Source: Candidatus Paraprochloron terpiosi LD05
GTDB taxonomy: Bacteria > Cyanobacteriota > Cyanobacteriia > Cyanobacteriales > Prochloraceae
DNA length: 64,000 nt
Reading direction: 5' to 3'
Assembly (NCBI GenBank): GCA_018141785.1
Contig: CP073341.1
Coordinates: 1,783,422-1,847,421 of the forward strand
The position numbers and the translations under genes are program-made. Below, one piece after another: positions 25,538-36,199 of the stretch (its first letter is position 1; each line of letters starts with the position of its first letter). The notes below the pieces were generated by a model. That model had not been told where the DNA came from, ran no database searches, and saw nothing but the letters and a program-made list of their open reading frames with translations.

Positions 25538-26506
25538 TCAATAGAAATTAGATTCTTGCAAGATATCCTGCAAAGTTTCTTCTAGTGAACGGGGTTGCCA
25601 ACCTAGTTCTCGACGGGCTTTACTAGCATTGACGCGAACACAGCGATCGTAAATATAATGCACCCGCTCCCTGCTAATAGGAGGATTCCAAGAGAAGAGT
25701 TTTCCAATTCCCTCCAATATATTTCCTGCAATTCTCACTAAGGGTTGGGGAACTTCCACTGGCTGAGATATATGTATATTTTTACCCAAAATAGCAAACA
25801 TTTCTCTCGTTGTCAAGTCTCCAGCGGAGATAATGTAATGTTCTCCGGGTTTTCCTTTTGTTGCTGCCAAAATCATGGCTTCCACTAAATCTTCTACGTG
25901 AACAATTCCAGTAATGCGATCGCCTCCTACCCAAAACTTCAGTTTATCTTGTCCAAATAGCTGGATAATGGGACCGAAATGAGGGTCGTCGGCTCCGAAA
26001 ATACCGGAAGGCATTATGCTGACTGCGGGTAAACCTTCTTGAGCAAATTTATCTACTAGTTGTTGTGCTTCATATTTAGTGCGGTCATAAGCTGAGGAGA
26101 AGTTTTGTTGCTGACGTTGGAAGGTTTCGTCTATGGTTTTTCCTTTTGTATCTCCATAGACACCAATGGTACTGCAATAGACTAATTTAGATATGTTGGC
26201 TGCTTTTGCTACTTCCAAGACGTTACGGGTTCCTTGGACGTTTACCCGTTCCATTTCCCCTTCGTTTACTAATCCTAATTCTACATAAGCAGCGACGTGA
26301 AAGACAGTATCTACATTGGCGATCGCCTTCTCTAAAGCTTGTGGATCTGTAATATCTCCGTAAACTAATTCTATATTACAGTTAGTAAGACGAGATAAGT
26401 TACTGCTTTTGCGCACCAAACCTTTGACAGTATGACCTTTTTTTTTCAAGGCTTTGACTAAATGAGAACCAGTAAAACCATTGGCTCCTGTAACTAATGT
26501 TTTCAT
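25538..26506 (-). CDS. NAD-dependent epimerase/reductase, CerR-like candidate
   Basis: A 322-residue extended SDR. MKTLVTGANGFTGSHLVKAL holds the TGxxGxxG NAD(P) motif, FHVAAYVELG the next conserved strand, STIGVYGD the Ser region, and SSAYDRTKYEAQQLVDKF the catalytic YxxxK. It resembles dihydroflavonol-4-reductase-like enzymes. Its ATG overlaps the stop of the upstream acyltransferase-like gene (ATGA), and an alpha-oxoamine synthase lies before that. In bacterial ceramide synthesis a reductase of this family (CerR) reduces 3-oxo-ceramide; that role is inferred from the gene set, not proven. Confidence 0.82.
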   Translation of the reverse strand: MKTLVTGANGFTGSHLVKALKKKGHTVKGLVRKSSNLSRLTNCNIELVYGDITDPQALEKAIANVDTVFHVAAYVELGLVNEGEMERVNVQGTRNVLEVAKAANISKLVYCSTIGVYGDTKGKTIDETFQRQQQNFSSAYDRTKYEAQQLVDKFAQEGLPAVSIMPSGIFGADDPHFGPIIQLFGQDKLKFWVGGDRITGIVHVEDLVEAMILAATKGKPGEHYIISAGDLTTREMFAILGKNIHISQPVEVPQPLVRIAGNILEGIGKLFSWNPPISRERVHYIYDRCVRVNASKARRELGWQPRSLEETLQDILQESNFY

Positions 26507-27636
26507 GATAATTCTTTTTCGTAAATGCGGTAAGTTTTACTAATTGTACCACCGGAAGCTTCAATTAATTTCCGAGAGGGTAAATTATCTTCCCAAACCC
26601 AAGAAAGTTCTGCTGTTTGATAGGGTTTCCCCTTTTTTGTTCCTCCCGCCATTCCTAGATAAATTAAAGCGATAGGTACCATTTTGCGACGGTATTCTGG
26701 GAGGGAACAAATAGCTAATACTCGGGAGTGATAGATTTGACGGCGATACCAGAGAAATTTGAGAGTTCCCCATAAATCTAACTTGCCATTGACTTGTTTT
26801 AATGGTATATTATAATCGGGCAATGCCATGAAAAAACCGATGGCTTTGTTTTTATCTTCAGCAATAATCAAAATATCCGGATCTATTAGTTGCTGCAAAT
26901 CTTTGGCTTCGGCGACAAATTCTGCTTCGCTGCGAGGAGTAGAACTCCAATTATTGACAAAAGCGGTAGTAAAGAGATGATAGATAATATCACAATCTTC
27001 TTCAAACCCTTTCCCTTTGAGGCGGATGGAACGGAAAGTAATGCCTGATTTAAGGGCAATGTTATATCCTTTCTTAAATTTAGCAGTGAGTTGATGATTG
27101 TGGACGGGAAAATCGTAGGCGTAGGCGTCTTTGGCTTTCTCCCAGCCAACCTGTTCTATAAATTGAGGATAATAAGGTGGATTATAGGGCATCATGAAGG
27201 CAGGGGGGGTGTGAAAACCATCCACCAGGAAGAGGCAATTATTGTGGGTGGATAAATCAATTGGACCTCTGGCTACCTTCATACCCCGCTCTATCAACCA
27301 ATCACAAGCAGTATTGAGCAATGCTTGGGCTACTTCAAAGTCTTGGACACATTCAAAATAACCAAACAAACCTACTGACTGATTTTCCTTTTCTATGAGT
27401 CGTTTATTCACTGCTGCAACAATTCGTCCCAAGGGTTCTCCTGTACTGCTGACAGCGATAAATGGTTGGGATTCACCGTATTGAGTAAAGGGATTGTCTG
27501 GGGCTAATTGCTTTTTAATACTGCTGCGTAGGGGTGGTACCCAGTTGGGGTCTTTTTGATATACTAAGGCTGGTAAGTTGAGAAAAGTTTCCCTCTCTTC
27601 AGCACTAATGGTGGGTTTAATTTTAAATTTAGTCAT
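26503..27636 (-). CDS. GNAT-like acyltransferase, bacterial ceramide synthase-like candidate
   Basis: 377 residues with a GNAT-type fold. KDPNWVPPLRSSIKKQLAPD and NPFTQYGESQPFIAV precede the acyl-CoA-binding strand EPLGRIVAAVNKRLIEKEN. NQSVGLFGYFECVQDFEVAQ, LSTHNNCLFLVDGFHTPPAF and MMPYNPPYYPQFIEQVGWEK follow. This long variant is usually annotated as an N-acetyltransferase. Proteins with this DPNWVPPL...GFFE...PHNPPYY pattern include, as I recall, the bCerS enzymes that N-acylate 3-ketosphinganine. Its neighbours on both sides fit that pathway. Confidence 0.78.
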   Translation of the reverse strand: MTKFKIKPTISAEERETFLNLPALVYQKDPNWVPPLRSSIKKQLAPDNPFTQYGESQPFIAVSSTGEPLGRIVAAVNKRLIEKENQSVGLFGYFECVQDFEVAQALLNTACDWLIERGMKVARGPIDLSTHNNCLFLVDGFHTPPAFMMPYNPPYYPQFIEQVGWEKAKDAYAYDFPVHNHQLTAKFKKGYNIALKSGITFRSIRLKGKGFEEDCDIIYHLFTTAFVNNWSSTPRSEAEFVAEAKDLQQLIDPDILIIAEDKNKAIGFFMALPDYNIPLKQVNGKLDLWGTLKFLWYRRQIYHSRVLAICSLPEYRRKMVPIALIYLGMAGGTKKGKPYQTAELSWVWEDNLPSRKLIEASGGTISKTYRIYEKELS

Positions 27637-27830
27637 CTTTCCTCGCCAGTACTATACCATTACAATTATAGCACAACGCCGTAATGATATTAACGGCTTC
27701 TTTCTTAACCCGCCCGCTCATAAATTGCGGGCTAATAGGTCAAGTCCACCCTTCGAGGGACTGTTATCTTGTTTTATTAGGGATTTAAAAGTTTCTCATC
27801 TTTTTTTTGCGAGGTCGAAAATTGTTCTTT

Positions 27831-27859
27831 TAACTGGTAACTGGTAACTGGTAACTGTT
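27831..27859. repeat. Short tandem heptamer repeat (AACTGGT)n
   Basis: Four tandem copies of the 7-base unit AACTGGT in the gap between the oxoamine synthase and the acyltransferase gene, ending GGTAACTGTTTCA. The same ending occurs at 36321-36356, and a variant (CTAACTG) at 58152-58172. It is of the cyanobacterial STRR type. Confidence 0.75.
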
Positions 27860-29146
27860 TCAAGCACTAACCATGGTTTTGGGCTGATACAAAGCATCCC
27901 TAGTGGCTACCATTGCCGTTACCAGCCGATCCATCTCCCTTTGGGTGTGGAGGGCATTAGTGACGATCCGGAGGCGGGGTTTGGCAATAAACCAGATGGG
28001 GGAGATCCAAATACCGTGGTTTTCCAACAGGTGACGGGCAAAGTCTTTGGGATTCATCTCTGTCGGTAACATCACCGGAATCACGTTAGTTTCGCCAATA
28101 GGGGCAAATTCGTGTTCGATTAAGAGAGCTCGCAGGTAACGGCTATTTCCCTGAAGTTTTTGGACTAACTGAGGATTGCGCCGCACAATGCGAATGCTTT
28201 CCAAGGCAGCTGCGGTGGTGGGCGGGGGTAGAGAAATGGTGCCGATGGAAGTAGGAGAGGTATCTAACAAGTCAATTAACTCGGCAGAATAGCTACTAAT
28301 TGCAGCCCCGGCGGAAGCGGCAAACTTGGAGAAGGTTGTCATAATTAGGGGGGCGACACCTCGATCCATTACTTCCTGGGGCGTTATGCCGAAGTGTTCG
28401 TAGATACCTCTGCCCGTGGCACCAATTGAGCCGCTGGCATGGGCTTCGTCCATGAGAATAACGCTGCCGGGATAATTGGCCAGCACGTCTACCATTTGGG
28501 GTAAGGGAGCTATATCTCCATCCATGGAGAAGACGGCATCGGATACCACCATAATCCTGTCGTCAGGGCCAGCATAGCGCCGTAGCTTCCTGGCTAAGTC
28601 ATCCACATCGCAGTGACGATAGGGTTTGACTCTAACTTCTGGGCTGTGACTGAATACTTTGCCGGAACGGTTCCCCGCATTAGTCACAGCAGAGAGAATA
28701 CAGCCGTGGTTGAGGATGTCCGTCATAATCAGGGTTTCTCTGGTGTTGCGAAACCCGGGCACTTGGATAGCTAAGTGACAAAAAGCATCCATCAAGCCTT
28801 GCATTGCCATCCAAGCATTTAAAAATAAGTGGGTGTGGGGCAAGTGCTTGAAGGCGGAGATTTCTCTTTCTAACTGGCGATGAAGTTCAATGCGCCCGCT
28901 TAATGTGGGACAGGAACTATTGGAAGTGCCGTACTGGAGAATGGCATCGATAGCCGCTTGTTTGACTGCTTCTGATTGAATTAAACCGAGAACGTCATTG
29001 GTACAGAAGGTGAGAACCCGATGTCTCACCCCGGTTTTTTCTTCTTCGATTTCGACGATATTGCCCTCTTTGCGATGACAGATATACTCGTCTGGATAAA
29101 GGCCGCTTTTGTGAAGCAGCCCAACGTATTCTTGAATAACTTCCAC
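27860..29146 (-). CDS. Alpha-oxoamine synthase-family PLP enzyme, serine palmitoyltransferase-like candidate
   Basis: 428 residues of the KBL/BioF/SPT family. FCTNDVLGLIQSEAVKQAAI and LQYGTSNSSCPTLSGRIELH are the N-terminal landmarks (NxYLG and G..G.G.CPxxxG equivalents). SDAVFSMDGDIAPLPQMVDV and VILMDEAHASGSIGATGRGI contain the PLP-binding Asp and His, and TTFSKFAASAGAAISS holds the Schiff-base Lys. The family condenses an acyl-CoA with an amino acid. Next to the GNAT-like and reductase genes, palmitoyl-CoA plus serine is a reasonable guess. No acyl-carrier-protein gene is seen nearby. Confidence 0.83.
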   Translation of the reverse strand: MEVIQEYVGLLHKSGLYPDEYICHRKEGNIVEIEEEKTGVRHRVLTFCTNDVLGLIQSEAVKQAAIDAILQYGTSNSSCPTLSGRIELHRQLEREISAFKHLPHTHLFLNAWMAMQGLMDAFCHLAIQVPGFRNTRETLIMTDILNHGCILSAVTNAGNRSGKVFSHSPEVRVKPYRHCDVDDLARKLRRYAGPDDRIMVVSDAVFSMDGDIAPLPQMVDVLANYPGSVILMDEAHASGSIGATGRGIYEHFGITPQEVMDRGVAPLIMTTFSKFAASAGAAISSYSAELIDLLDTSPTSIGTISLPPPTTAAALESIRIVRRNPQLVQKLQGNSRYLRALLIEHEFAPIGETNVIPVMLPTEMNPKDFARHLLENHGIWISPIWFIAKPRLRIVTNALHTQREMDRLVTAMVATRDALYQPKTMVSA

Positions 29147-29735: not shown

Positions 29736-30038
29736 TCAATCCTCTTCTAAACGACGAATTCGTTCTTCATGATCTGCTTGAATGCGATCGCTAATCTCCG
29801 CATTAGTCACCAACCGTTCTGCGATGAGCATTAAACCCTTAATATGTTCTGAGATTCCAGTTATTTGTTCTGACACTCTAGCTAGTTCTGACTGACGACG
29901 CAAATCACTCTCTTGCAACTCTCGCTGACAAGCCATGAACCGCTCCATTTCTTTCTCGAACCACTGCTCTCGCTCACTCAACTGTCGCTGAGACTCCAAA
30001 ATCCCTGCGATAACTGTCTGCATTTCTTCAAAAGTCAT
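29736..30038 (-). CDS. Coiled-coil protein, tandem paralogue 1
   Basis: About 100 residues, MTFEEMQTVIAGILESQRQL onward, with continuous charged helix (SEREQWFEKEMERFMACQRE, then SEQITGISEHIKGLMLIAER). AAGGAGG lies 8 bases before the ATG at 30038, which is why the longer MLIRREWE start is not used. It is nearly identical to the gene at 30103-30426. It has no membrane segment and no known function. Confidence 0.7.
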   Translation of the reverse strand: MTFEEMQTVIAGILESQRQLSEREQWFEKEMERFMACQRELQESDLRRQSELARVSEQITGISEHIKGLMLIAERLVTNAEISDRIQADHEERIRRLEED

Positions 30039-30102
30039 TTCCCACTCCCTCCTTATTAGCACTTAGATTTATTATAGCCTATTTTTCCTCTGTGGTTCAA
30101 AA

Positions 30103-30426
30103 TCAATCCTCTTCTAAACGACGAATCCGTTCTTCATGATCTGCTTGAATGCGATCCCCAATTTCCGCATTAGTCACCAACCGTTCTGCGATGAGCATTA
30201 AACCCTTAATTTGTTCTGAGACTTCAGCCATTCGTTCTGACACTCCAGTTATTTGTTCTGACACTCTAGCTAGTTCTGACTGACGACGCAAATCACTCTC
30301 TTGTAACTCTCGCTGACAAGCCATGAACCGCTCCATTTCTTTCTCGAACCACTGCTCTCGCTCACTCAACTGTCGCTGGGACTCCAAAATCCCTGCAATT
30401 ATTGTCTGCATTTCTTCAAAAGTCAT
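30103..30426 (-). CDS. Coiled-coil protein, tandem paralogue 2
   Basis: About 107 residues, almost identical to the downstream copy except for an extra 7-residue unit near the middle (SERMAEV inserted in the SEQI repeats). The repeated flanks (CTCCTTATTAGCACTTAGAT followed by TTATTAT) show that the duplication unit includes the ribosome-binding region. No known function. Confidence 0.7.
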   Translation of the reverse strand: MTFEEMQTIIAGILESQRQLSEREQWFEKEMERFMACQRELQESDLRRQSELARVSEQITGVSERMAEVSEQIKGLMLIAERLVTNAEIGDRIQADHEERIRRLEED

Positions 30427-30466
30427 TTCCCACTCCCTCCTTATTAGCACTTAGATTTATTATAAC

Positions 30467-30763
30467 CTATTTTTCCTCTGTGGTTAAATTATAAAAATCA
30501 TCAATATTAGTCATCAACCGTTCTGAGACTTTTAATAAACTCTGAATACCTTTTGAGACTTCATCTAATTTGGCTTCAAAAAGCAACTCCATCTCTTTCG
30601 ACTTACGCTGACGAGCCCAGAAGAGTTCATTTTCTTTCTCAAACCATTGTTTGCGTTGCTCGAATTGCTCTTGTTGCTCACTAAATTTGTCTTGTCCCTC
30701 ACTCAACTGTCCCTGAGACTCCAAAATCCCTGCAATTATTGTCTGCATTTCTTCAAAAGTCAT
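30467..30763 (-). CDS. Coiled-coil protein, tandem paralogue 3 (diverged)
   Basis: About 98 residues. It shares MTFEEMQTIIAGILESQ with the other two copies, then differs: a Gln/Glu-rich stretch (QDKFSEQQEQFEQRKQWFEK) and a different tail ending DDFYNLTTEEK. AAGGGAG precedes the ATG. It is probably the oldest of the three tandem copies. Confidence 0.65.
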   Translation of the reverse strand: MTFEEMQTIIAGILESQGQLSEGQDKFSEQQEQFEQRKQWFEKENELFWARQRKSKEMELLFEAKLDEVSKGIQSLLKVSERLMTNIDDFYNLTTEEK

Positions 30764-30863
30764 TTTATACTCCCTTATTAGCACTTAGATTTATTATAGC
30801 CTATTTTTCCTCTGTGGGCGGCGCGGGCGGGCGGTTTATCGCTCAACAATGCCCACCCTACTG

Positions 30864-32828
30864 TTAACTGCGCAATTTATCCAAAACACTGCGGTCTTCT
30901 AAAGTAGAAGTATCTCCTCCTATTTCTTCTCCAGCAGCTAGATTACGCAATAAGCGTCGCATAATCTTCCCAGAACGAGTTTTGGGCATAGCGTCGGTGA
31001 AGCGAATTTCTCCAGGACGGGCGATCGCCCCTATTTCCTGCACCACATGTTGTTTCAGTTCTTGCACCAATGACTCAGAACCAGTATAATTCCCTTCTAA
31101 GGTGACAAAGGCAAAGATATCTTCTCCCTTCACTTCATCTGGTCGCCCCACTACCGCAGCTTCTGCTACTGCCGGATGAGATACTAAGGCAGATTCTACC
31201 TCCATGGTACCCAGACGATGGCCAGAAACGTTAATCACGTCGTCTACTCGACCCATAACCCAGTAATAACCGTCTTCATCTCGCTTGGCTCCGTCTCCAG
31301 CAAAGTAGAAATGTTGGTTGTCTCGGGGAGAAATAGGTTCCCAATAAGTGCGACGGAAGCGGTCAGGATCCTTGTGCACTGTCCGCATCATACTGGGCCA
31401 AGGATGCTTTATTATTAAATAACCCCCTTCATTATCTTCCACCGGGTTCCCATCTAAGTCCACCACATCCACTATAATACCAGGAAAAGGACGTGTAGCG
31501 GAACCTGGTTTGGTGGGGGTGACACCGGGTAAAGGGCTTATCATGATGCCTCCCGTTTCCGTCTGCCACCAGGTATCGACAATAGGACACCGCCCTCCAC
31601 CAATAACTTCATGGTACCACATCCAAGCGGACGGGTTAATAGGCTCCCCTACAGTTCCCAAGAGTCGTAGGGAAGATAAATCTCGTGCTTTGGGGAGGTG
31701 TTCTCCCATTTTAATAAAAGCCCGAATGGCTGTGGGGGCAGTATAGAAGATATTTACCCCATATTTCTCCACTATATCCCAGAAACAGCCGGGGTTAGAA
31801 GGACGAGGTACTCCTTCGTACATTAAACTGGTGGCACCGTTGGAAAGGGGACCATAGACAATATAACTGTGTCCCGTAATCCAACCTACGTCCGCAGTAC
31901 ACCAATAGACGTCAGTCTCCTGAAGGTCGAAGATCCACTTGGTGGTCATGTGGGTGTATAAATTATAGCCTCCCGTAGTGTGAACCACTCCTTTAGGCTT
32001 TCCCGTGGTACCGCTAGTATAGAGGATGAAGAGCATATCCTCACTATCCATGGGTTCAGCAGGACAGTGTCCAGACATTTCTGGTTGCACCTCGTGCCAC
32101 CAATGGTCTCTTCCCGGTTCCATACTCACCTTTTCTTTGGTCCGTTGCACTACCAGCACATTAGTTACACTAGGGACCCCGTTGTCAGCCAGTGCTCTAT
32201 CTACTTGAGCCTTTAAAGGGACAATTTTATCCTTACGATAGCCGGAGTCAGCAGTGACCACTAATTTAGCTTCGGCGTCTAGGAGTCTGTCTTGCAGGGC
32301 TTGGGCACTAAAACCACCAAATACTACCGTATGAGGAGCACCAATCCTTGCACAGGCTAACATGGCGATGGCTGCTTCTGGTATCATGGGCATATAAATA
32401 CCCACCCGATCCCCTTTACACACTCCCAACTGCTTCATAGCGTTAGCCATTTGACAAACTTCCCGATGGAGTTGAGCGTAGGTAAGGGTGCGACTGTCTC
32501 CCGGTTCTCCTTCCCAAATTAAGGCTGCTTTATTCCGTCGCTCGGTGGTAAGATGTCTGTCTAGGCAATTATAGGTAATGTTAATCTTACCGTTGACGAA
32601 CCATTGGGCAAAGGGAGGTTTCCAGTCTAGTATTTTATCCCATGGTTTGAACCAATGTAGTTCCTGTTGGGCTAATTCTGCCCAAAACTGCTCCGGGTTG
32701 GAACTAGCTTTCTGATAGAGTTCCTCATAGTGTTGGCTACTTCCAATGGTAGCTCGTGAGGAAAAGTCTCTGGGGGGGTTAAATAGGCGTTTCTCTTGTA
32801 GTACTGATTCTATGGTTGATTGTGACAT
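30864..32828 (-). CDS. acs: Acetyl-CoA synthetase
   Basis: 654 residues, the standard Acs length. Acetate plus ATP plus CoA gives acetyl-CoA plus AMP. Seen: [20 protein letters not shown], the AMP-binding loop [58 protein letters not shown] and, at the C-terminus, [14 protein letters not shown] with the Lys that is regulated by acetylation in characterised enzymes. Start context and end are normal. Monocistronic by position. Confidence 0.97.
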
Positions 32829-34430: not shown

Positions 34431-34498
34431 TATAATAAACCACAGAGACGCAGAGAACGCAGAGATAAGATTATGAGAGAGTCTGAAACTGAGTTGGT

Positions 34499-34951
34499 TT
34501 ATTTGTTAAAGAACAGAAGTTTGACAACACCACTGACAAAACCGATAAATATAGCTGTTACACTAGCTTTACTGACAAACTCTGATGTTTCTATTCGTTT
34601 TTCCCAACCATTGATTTTTTCATCCATTTTTTTGTCTATACCCTTGATTTTTTCTTCCACACCATTGATTTTCTCGTCTATTTTTTTGTCTATACCCTTG
34701 ATTTTTTCTTCCACACCATTGATTTTTTCATCCATTTTTTTGTCTATACCCTTGATTTTTTCATCCATGAGTTTCATCTCTCCTTTAACCTCCGCAAAAC
34801 GAGTATCAACTTTCGCAAAACCTACATCAACTTTCTTATCTAAATCTTTAATGTCATTCTTGATCTCCCCAATTTCATTCTTTATATCCCCAATTTCATT
34901 AGTTAAATTGACAATTAATTGTTCCAATTTGGCAAAATTTGAGTCAGTCAT
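34499..34951 (-). CDS. Coiled-coil protein with C-terminal membrane anchor, copy A
   Basis: About 150 residues. MTDSNFAKLEQLIVNLTNEI begins a long coiled coil containing an 18-residue tandem repeat (DEKINGVEEKIKGIDKKM) in about 2.5 copies. It ends with a hydrophobic anchor ASVTAIFIGFVSGVVKLLFF. AAGGAG lies 7 bases before the ATG at 34951; the frame extends to 35017 but that part is less likely. It is a close paralogue of the next gene. Function unknown. Confidence 0.72.
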   Translation of the reverse strand: MTDSNFAKLEQLIVNLTNEIGDIKNEIGEIKNDIKDLDKKVDVGFAKVDTRFAEVKGEMKLMDEKIKGIDKKMDEKINGVEEKIKGIDKKIDEKINGVEEKIKGIDKKMDEKINGWEKRIETSEFVSKASVTAIFIGFVSGVVKLLFFNK

Positions 34952-35063
34952 GGTTTTCTCCTTCTCTTTTGTTTGGGTTAAGTCAGGGTGAGACTGTGGT
35001 TTTACTGGCGCCGCCATGTTTTTCCTCTTTTATTATACACTATCATATTATAACACAGATGGT

Positions 35064-35516
35064 TTATTTGTTAAAGAACAGAAGTTTGACAACACCGCTG
35101 ACAAAACCGATAAATATAGCTGTCACACTAGCTTTACTGACAAACTCTGATGTTTCTAGTCGTTTTTCCCAACCATTGATTTTTTCATCCATTTTTTTGT
35201 CCATAGCCTTGATTTTTTCTTCCACACCATTGATTTTTTCATCCATTTTTTTGTCCATAGCCTTGATTTTTTCTTCCACACCATTTATTTTCTCGTCTAT
35301 TTTTTTGTCCACACCATTGATTTTTTCATCCATAGCCTTGATTTTTTCTTCCAGGACTTTTATTTCTCCTTTAACCTCCGCAAAACGAGTATCAACCCTG
35401 GCAAAACCTACATCAACTTTCTTATCTAAATCCCCAATGTCATTCTTGACATTCCCAACTTCATTGGTTAAGTTGACAATTAATTGTTCCAATCTGGCAA
35501 AATTTGAGTCAGTCAT
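35064..35516 (-). CDS. Coiled-coil protein with C-terminal membrane anchor, copy B
   Basis: Same architecture as the neighbouring copy: MTDSNFARLEQLIVNLTNEV, then 18-residue units (DEKINGVEEKIKAMDKKM), then the identical anchor ASVTAIFIGFVSGVVKLLFF. The number and spacing of the repeat units differ from copy A. AGGAG precedes the ATG at 35516. The plus strand shows long Ser/Leu-rich open frames here, which are only shadows of the repeats. Confidence 0.72.
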   Translation of the reverse strand: MTDSNFARLEQLIVNLTNEVGNVKNDIGDLDKKVDVGFARVDTRFAEVKGEIKVLEEKIKAMDEKINGVDKKIDEKINGVEEKIKAMDKKMDEKINGVEEKIKAMDKKMDEKINGWEKRLETSEFVSKASVTAIFIGFVSGVVKLLFFNK

Positions 35517-35566
35517 GGTTTTCTCCTGTTCAACTTCTGATATAGCCATGTGTTTCCACTATACAA

Positions 35567-36199
35567 TCATATAACTGTCGGGTGTTGTCCGTAAAATGGC
35601 AGTGCTGAAGACCAGTGGGGGCGCTTTCCTTGTTGCCAATCCAGATATGCTAATTCTAGGATACTACTTACGGTAGCCCCTAAATTAACTGGAGCATGAA
35701 TTAATTGGTACGGCATTTCTAAATTAGCTAAAGTTTGCTCCCAAGTAGGGGGTTTCATGGTAATATCTGGTAAATGCTCTTGCAAACCAACGCCGTCAGA
35801 AGCTACCCTATAGATAGCCCCAAATAATTGACCCCTTCTGGCTTCCATTTGGACAGCCATCGCCCTTTCTTGTTTCTTTTCAGACCAAGCTATAGCTGCT
35901 AGGGTAGAGATAGGAAAGAGAGGAAGATCTAACTGTTGGGCTATAATTCGCGCCGTAACTACACCAATGCGAGTACCAGTAAAGCCCCCCGGACCTTTAG
36001 CAACAGCAATAAAGCCCAAATTAGACCAATTTTTTGCTCCCAGAAACTCCACCAAATATTGATGTAAATGGGTGGATAAGTCTCGTCCTAAATCCCACAC
36101 TTCCGTGGAAGTATCCCCAGCAAAGTTGCTCAGAGCAATACCCAATTGAGGGCTGGTAGTATGGAGAGCAAGACCGTATTTCTTCATGTCGAGAGTCAT
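35567..36199 (-). CDS. tsaB: tRNA threonylcarbamoyladenosine biosynthesis protein TsaB
   Basis: About 210 residues. MKKYGLALHTTSPQLGIAL begins the ASKHA fold, and FIAVAKGPGGFTGTRIGVVT is the TsaB signature (GPGSFTGLRIG). LFPISTLAAIAWSEKK and MEARRGQLFGAIYRV follow, matching the 'D A R' loop region. With TsaD and TsaE it forms t6A37 in ANN-decoding tRNAs. The start at 36199 (MTLDMKKYG) or 36187 is likely; the longer frame is repeat-derived. Confidence 0.9.
   Translation of the reverse strand: MTLDMKKYGLALHTTSPQLGIALSNFAGDTSTEVWDLGRDLSTHLHQYLVEFLGAKNWSNLGFIAVAKGPGGFTGTRIGVVTARIIAQQLDLPLFPISTLAAIAWSEKKQERAMAVQMEARRGQLFGAIYRVASDGVGLQEHLPDITMKPPTWEQTLANLEMPYQLIHAPVNLGATVSSILELAYLDWQQGKRPHWSSALPFYGQHPTVI

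Follow-up and report, generated by a model that had tools for sequence, protein, structure and literature searches.

A co-distributed set of alpha-oxoamine synthase, tandem-GNAT acyltransferase and reductase genes in cyanobacteria, with a proposed role in a ceramide-like lipid pathway

The sequence analysed here (the window) is a stretch of 64,000 nucleotides from contig CP073341.1 of the cyanobacterium Candidatus Paraprochloron terpiosi LD05. It carries genes for an alpha-oxoamine synthase (AOS), a long GNAT-like acyltransferase and an extended short-chain dehydrogenase/reductase (SDR), which are considered here as the core of a proposed sphingolipid-type pathway.

The three genes and their joint distribution

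The genes are co-directional, as described in the original prediction made from the sequence alone; all three open reading frames (ORFs) are intact and lie on the minus strand. The features are as follows.

27860–29146, minus strand: alpha-oxoamine synthase, 428 aa, with a GTG start 3′ of an AGGAG-like site; the pyridoxal phosphate (PLP) lysine K274 is at 28325–28327
27637–27859, minus strand: gap of 223 bases between the AOS and acyltransferase genes, holding a weak promoter-like match (consensus match only) at 27665–27693
26503–27636, minus strand: tandem-GNAT N-acyltransferase, 377 aa, homologue of YghO and CC_1154 (bacterial ceramide synthase, bCerS, family)
26503–26506, minus strand: ATGA, formed by the acyltransferase stop and the SDR start, read as translational coupling
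25538–26506, minus strand: extended SDR, 322 aa, proposed 3-keto reductase (CerR-like role)

The motifs named earlier are all present, namely TFSK (as TTFSK, with K274) and DEAH in the AOS and DPNWVPPL and NPPYYP in the acyltransferase, as is the ATGA overlap said to couple the acyltransferase to the SDR. Pfam places the AOS protein in Aminotran_1_2 (5e-30) and the SDR protein in Epimerase (7e-44). For the acyltransferase there was a GNAT match below threshold only (0.003), and no NCBIfam model matched. The promoter-like match in the gap may start a second transcript on the acyltransferase side.

The presence and absence of the genes was surveyed in 292 cyanobacterial genomes. Close orthologues of AOS (69–77% identity), acyltransferase (58–68%) and SDR (59–69%) occur in an identical set of 22 genomes, which span 14 families. 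The carriers are patchy, with at least two families of the same order (f11 and f44) mixing carriers and non-carriers. The AOS and acyltransferase genes adjoin in 14 of the carriers and the acyltransferase and SDR genes in 10, while neither pair is adjacent in six, so that a single linked cluster cannot explain the shared distribution. Taken at face value, two identical sets would arise by chance with a probability of about 1e-33. Common descent makes this figure less telling, yet the carriers are still spread over 14 families. It is concluded that the arrangement is far beyond chance, and that by phylogenetic profile the three genes are one functional module.

Partner genes of the module

Gene neighbourhoods were read at about 55 AOS loci, including those of Prochloron didemni (AOS at 83%), Baaleninema simplex PCC 7105, Leptolyngbya PCC 7375, Leptothoe kymatousa, Nostoc sp. 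WHI, Calothrix and Symploca. The acyltransferase is near AOS in 36 of these loci and the SDR in 24. A Rieske oxygenase is directly upstream of AOS in 39, and a divergent MFS protein is found nearby in 22. Less frequent neighbours are a PF04116 fatty-acid hydroxylase (12 loci), a DevA-like ATPase (11), a GH3 protein (10) and a DevC-like permease (8).

The partners are distributed with the module even where they are not linked to it. The Rieske clade (at least 54% identity) is present in 15 of the 22 carriers, the close GH3 clade in 16 and the close MFS clade in 18, and all three are absent from the other 270 genomes. The PF04116 hydroxylase clade (at least 65% identity) occurs in 20 carriers and in none of 44 tested negatives, and the DevC-like permease clade (at least 50%; split in two in one genome) in all 22 carriers and in none of 20 tested negatives. 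In the host these genes sit outside the window, beyond the reach of the original prediction:

C1:1538697-1545374, outside the window: GH3, MFS and Rieske genes together
C1:3214986-3216233, outside the window: permease and ATPase genes
C1:3744557-3745042, outside the window: PF04116 hydroxylase gene

The permease reaches 145 bits on the DevC equivalog (cut-off 290) and the ATPase 253 bits on DevA (cut-off 296), and both miss. They thus resemble the heterocyst glycolipid exporter DevBCA as DevC- and DevA-type ABC proteins in a cyanobacterium, but differ in forming a separate clade that tracks the AOS module. Among curated models, the GH3 protein is nearest to OlsH, an N-acyl-ornithine synthetase that draws on free fatty acids and ATP (PMC12493201). 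OlsH is similarly a bacterial GH3 protein tied to an amino lipid, but the module protein is far under its cut-off (95 bits against 620). The nearest model for the Rieske protein is the 4beta-methylsterol oxygenase SdmA, which suggests that it oxidizes a lipid. The sterol C-4 demethylation pair SdmA/SdmB likewise combines a Rieske protein with an extended SDR, and SdmA and SdmB are the best or second-best NCBIfam matches; however, the scores of 230 and 140 bits fall short of the cut-offs of 600, and the module adds an AOS and an acyltransferase.

The patchy distribution (22 of 292), the MFS and ABC exporters and the GH3 amide synthetase would also suit a secondary-metabolite pathway, making and exporting an aminoketone or amide that is not a membrane lipid. 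We consider this unlikely, given that no polyketide synthase or nonribosomal peptide synthetase is among the recurrent neighbours of the AOS loci, that the components are scattered over the genome in many carriers, and that a lipid-type hydroxylase and a bCerS-family acyltransferase are present.

Some further genes were noted close to the module. Aspartyl/asparaginyl beta-hydroxylase genes adjoin the Rieske/AOS cluster in cyanobacteria (L214:7049-8384; in the host genome near C1:1544000, short) and are also found at L131:606-1361 and L225:14129-14878; the loci listed include the yghO locus of Pseudomonas veronii. An acetyl-CoA synthetase gene is near AOS in the window (30864–32828, minus strand), and another is near the module in a second cyanobacterial contig (L134:12254-14221), possibly by chance. 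The latter contig, which has the entire module in its cyanobacterial form, is labelled Tatlockia sp. (Legionellaceae), probably mistakenly. Just upstream of AOS, at 29736–30784 (minus strand), are three tandem paralogous small coiled-coil ORFs of 105–115 aa, with direct repeats of 86–255 nt at 91–96% identity. A tandem pair of near-duplicate coiled-coil ORFs (161 and 172 aa), which contain internal repeats, is at 34473–35574.

The acyltransferase, the AOS and the SDR

The acyltransferase is 28.7% identical to E. coli YghO over 100% of the query (1e-41). The yghO gene is listed as the counterpart of Caulobacter CC_1154, an acyltransferase required for dihydroceramide (PMC9386255); our comparison with Caulobacter was made through the Sphingomonas and E. 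coli orthologues, and not with the Caulobacter sequences themselves. A tblastn search of plasmid records gave full-length homologues, the best at 28–34% identity, and alignment with the homologues showed conserved motifs from end to end. The predicted structure (mean pLDDT 89) has a tandem-GNAT fold, with the best match to MAB_4324 (Z 24.7, rmsd 3.4 over 305 residues); N-myristoyltransferases are lower in the list of structural matches (Z 16). In the tree, the cyanobacterial proteins form their own clade beside the proteobacterial clade, not inside it.

Several of the homologues examined, YghO among them, come from known or likely sphingolipid loci, which bears out the kinship proposed originally. 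The E. coli YghO locus contains AOS, acyl carrier protein (ACP), SDR, fatty acyl-AMP ligase and LptFG genes, and that of Sphingomonas parapaucimobilis contains AOS, ACP, SDR and LptFG. The homologues of Pseudomonas veronii and Klebsiella are in loci with a ceramide gene set. Genes for sterol desaturase/hydroxylase and for aspartyl beta-hydroxylase are found repeatedly in proteobacterial loci with a YghO-type GNAT. In Aureispira, AOS, GNAT and SDR are together, with the SDR divergent. The family alone is no proof of ceramide synthesis, since some of its members are not linked to an AOS. Distant homologues in genomes of the same phylum outside the class are also not AOS-linked and form a separate clade; one of them (L223:5885-8628) immediately precedes an AMP-ligase-like gene and has no AOS with it. 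No acyltransferase of the YghO-type family was present within 8 kb at around 45 AOS loci of 30% identity. In a candidate stretch of E. coli CFT073, an AOS set was absent, and the genes were those for beta-ketoacyl synthase, ACP and MMPL.

The AOS is harder to place. On the NCBIfam models for serine palmitoyltransferase (SPT) it reached 170 bits (cut-off 640), 147 bits (cut-off 500) and 104 bits (cut-off 670), missing all three. The KBL equivalog models were also missed (157–189 bits, cut-offs 460–493), and the AOS is outside the KBL clade. The top NCBIfam match is bioF (TIGR00858), which was again missed, at 226 bits with a cut-off of 426. A separate gene in the host genome passes the bioF cut-off at 457 bits, so that biotin synthesis is already provided for, and a BioF identity for the AOS was rejected on these scores. 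In the tree, the cyanobacterial AOS and that of one gammaproteobacterial metagenome-assembled genome (MAG) form a single clade (100/100) on a long branch. The known SPTs form another clade together with the AOS of Rubrobacter, Streptomyces and Aureispira (100/95), which does not include the window AOS. Approximately unbiased (AU) tests did not reject a grouping with the SPT clade (p-AU 0.216) or with the KBL clade (p-AU 0.205).

A second BioF or KBL, adjacent to the other genes by accident, would be consistent with the top NCBIfam match, with the AU result for KBL, and with one tree in which the AOS grouped loosely with the very long branch of E. coli BioF. It is nevertheless highly improbable. 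The score is well short of the bioF cut-off, which another host gene passes, and the perfect co-occurrence with the acyltransferase and SDR genes already speaks against it. Neither the profile scores nor the trees gave a firm grouping with BioF or KBL.

Alignment of the AOS shows that the PLP lysine, the stacking histidine, the Asp/His pair and the arginine of the carboxylate site are all conserved. The clade has two insertions around the region of the PLP-stacking histidine and another ahead of the lysine. It reads NHGCI where most other AOS read HASI, and a shortened FIAKP replaces the PPATPAGT-type loop found in nearly all the other AOS compared. In the predicted structure (mean pLDDT 72), the closest solved structures are AOS at Z of about 31, with SPT no better than others. 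The match to the AOS of the sulfonolipid pathway (cysteate acyl-ACP transferase, PDB 7u7h), which also starts an amino-alcohol lipid but from an amino acid other than serine, is somewhat weaker (Z 27.9, compared to about 31 for SPT).

Judged by its sequence, the AOS is not an SPT, and an SPT identity is unsupported; it appears as a new subfamily, a distinct deep clade with a remodelled acyl loop. The name Spt would be a functional guess and not a statement of membership, because the protein falls outside the SPT clade and scores far under the cut-offs. The features read here do not single out one amino acid: the catalytic residues are intact, the loop is changed, insertions are present, and the model matches SPT no better than other AOS. 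Since the clade is separate, the substrates may differ from serine and a palmitoyl thioester.

The SDR is 22–30% identical to SDRs linked to SPT, the best being from Streptomyces (1e-31). Its best curated models are HpnA and SdmB, which are closer than CerR. The protein starts directly at the Rossmann motif with no N-terminal extension and is therefore likely to be cytoplasmic; Caulobacter CerR is periplasmic (PMC11087976). A role as keto reductase is proposed from its gene context. The original prediction of the same three families as Caulobacter Spt, bCerS and CerR therefore holds for family composition and for the acyltransferase, but not for membership of the AOS in the SPT clade, and the SDR is nearer to other models than to CerR.

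Compact AOS-GNAT-SDR operons in the order of the window were found on plasmids of Rubrobacter (radiotolerans) and Streptomyces (L112:6698-10065 and L114:4757-8039). In Streptomyces sp. NBC_01001 the genes overlap. These operons differ from the window in that their AOS are in the SPT clade, and the cyanobacterial AOS is 30% identical to that of Rubrobacter radiotolerans. Their clade position suggests ceramide synthesis in Actinomycetota. The gammaproteobacterial MAG contig (L157:1052-8620) has AOS (57%) followed by GNAT (53%) and then an ABC ATPase and permease, and may reflect transfer or a binning error. Its permease was considered as a member of the cyanobacterial clade and rejected, being 24% identical to the cyanobacterial permease.

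A proposed pathway to a ceramide-like lipid

The three genes, together with the unlinked co-distributed genes, probably make and export a ceramide-like (sphingolipid-type) lipid. The proposal starts from what was observed: the genes and their families, the joint distribution, the homology of the acyltransferase and the catalytic residues. The reactions, the order of the steps and the product are predictions from gene content. The AOS would join a small amino acid, most likely serine but possibly glycine or alanine, to a long-chain acyl thioester, forming a 3-keto long-chain base. This base would be N-acylated with a second fatty acyl chain by the tandem GNAT, and the SDR would reduce the 3-ketone. 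The PF04116 hydroxylase and the Rieske oxygenase are predicted to hydroxylate the product, while possible roles for the GH3 amide synthetase are attachment of an amino acid as head group and supply of an activated acid. The DevA/DevC-like ABC exporter, proposed to be dedicated to this product, and the MFS protein would move the product outward.

The module is expected to work like a known kind of system, since it has the same gene composition as the bacterial ceramide pathway. With the Spt-AcpR-AasR-CerR-CerS (YghO) set of Caulobacter and E. coli it shares an AOS, an extended SDR and a YghO-type tandem-GNAT unit, with full-length acyltransferase homology. It departs from this set in the clade of its AOS, in having no linked specialized ACP or acyl-ACP synthetase, in a DevA/DevC-like exporter in place of a second LptFG, and in the added GH3 and Rieske partners.

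Several observations weigh against a ceramide pathway. The AOS is outside the SPT clade, far under the SPT cut-offs and without the PPATPAGT-type loop; the SDR is closest to HpnA and SdmB; and no known ceramide pathway includes GH3 or Rieske proteins. Neither an ACP nor an acyl-ACP synthetase was among the recurrent neighbours of the roughly 55 AOS loci, where only the neighbourhoods were read, in agreement with the earlier remark that no ACP lies near the genes. A specialized ACP and acyl-ACP synthetase beside spt is a feature defined for Rhodobacteria (PMC9386255), and Bacteroidota also lack genomic clustering of ceramide genes (PMC11334938).

Two forms of the ceramide-like reading differ in the base. 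In one, the AOS is a genuine serine palmitoyltransferase that has diverged, and the product is a canonical serine-derived dihydroceramide. The partner families are those of Caulobacter and E. coli, the gene order is that of the Rubrobacter and Streptomyces operons, and the AU test accommodates a grouping with the SPT clade. Set against this are the SPT scores (104–170 bits, cut-offs 500–670), the separate clade on its long branch, the replaced substrate loop and the insertions, which leave this form a serious possibility that falls somewhat short of probable. In the other, the AOS substrate is glycine, alanine or some further amino acid, and the products are 1-deoxy-type or other N-acyl amino-alcohol lipids, which GH3 and Rieske enzymes go on to modify. 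Here the distinct clade, the changed loop and the insertions count in favour, as do the relationships of GH3 to the N-acyl-ornithine synthetase OlsH (PMC12493201) and of Rieske to the lipid oxygenase SdmA, both being specific to the module. The active-site residues read do not discriminate the amino acid, however, and we regard this form as possible but rather doubtful.

Whichever base is used, the ceramide-like pathway proposed here bears on an open question, namely whether cyanobacteria produce sphingolipids. Two ceramides have been reported from cyanobacteria. The sole genetic and lipidomic test, in Nostoc punctiforme, found no sphingolipids, and the protein studied was concluded to be BioF (PMC8895605). 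This negative result does not bear on the module, because BioF is in a different AOS clade. Our literature search, with most subscription journals outside its coverage, found no published description of the module. It is quite possible, if not yet probable, that this is an undescribed cyanobacterial lipid pathway in which synthesis of a non-standard long-chain base by a new AOS subfamily, N-acylation, reduction, hydroxylation by Rieske and PF04116 enzymes, GH3 conjugation and export through a dedicated DevA/DevC-like transporter produce a new class of ceramide-like outer-membrane lipid. The module names strains for testing (such as Baaleninema simplex PCC 7105 and Leptolyngbya PCC 7375) and targets for knock-out, and predicts which cyanobacteria should be without the lipid. 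A new AOS subfamily is indicated as well, and a place in a lipid pathway for GH3 and Rieske enzymes.

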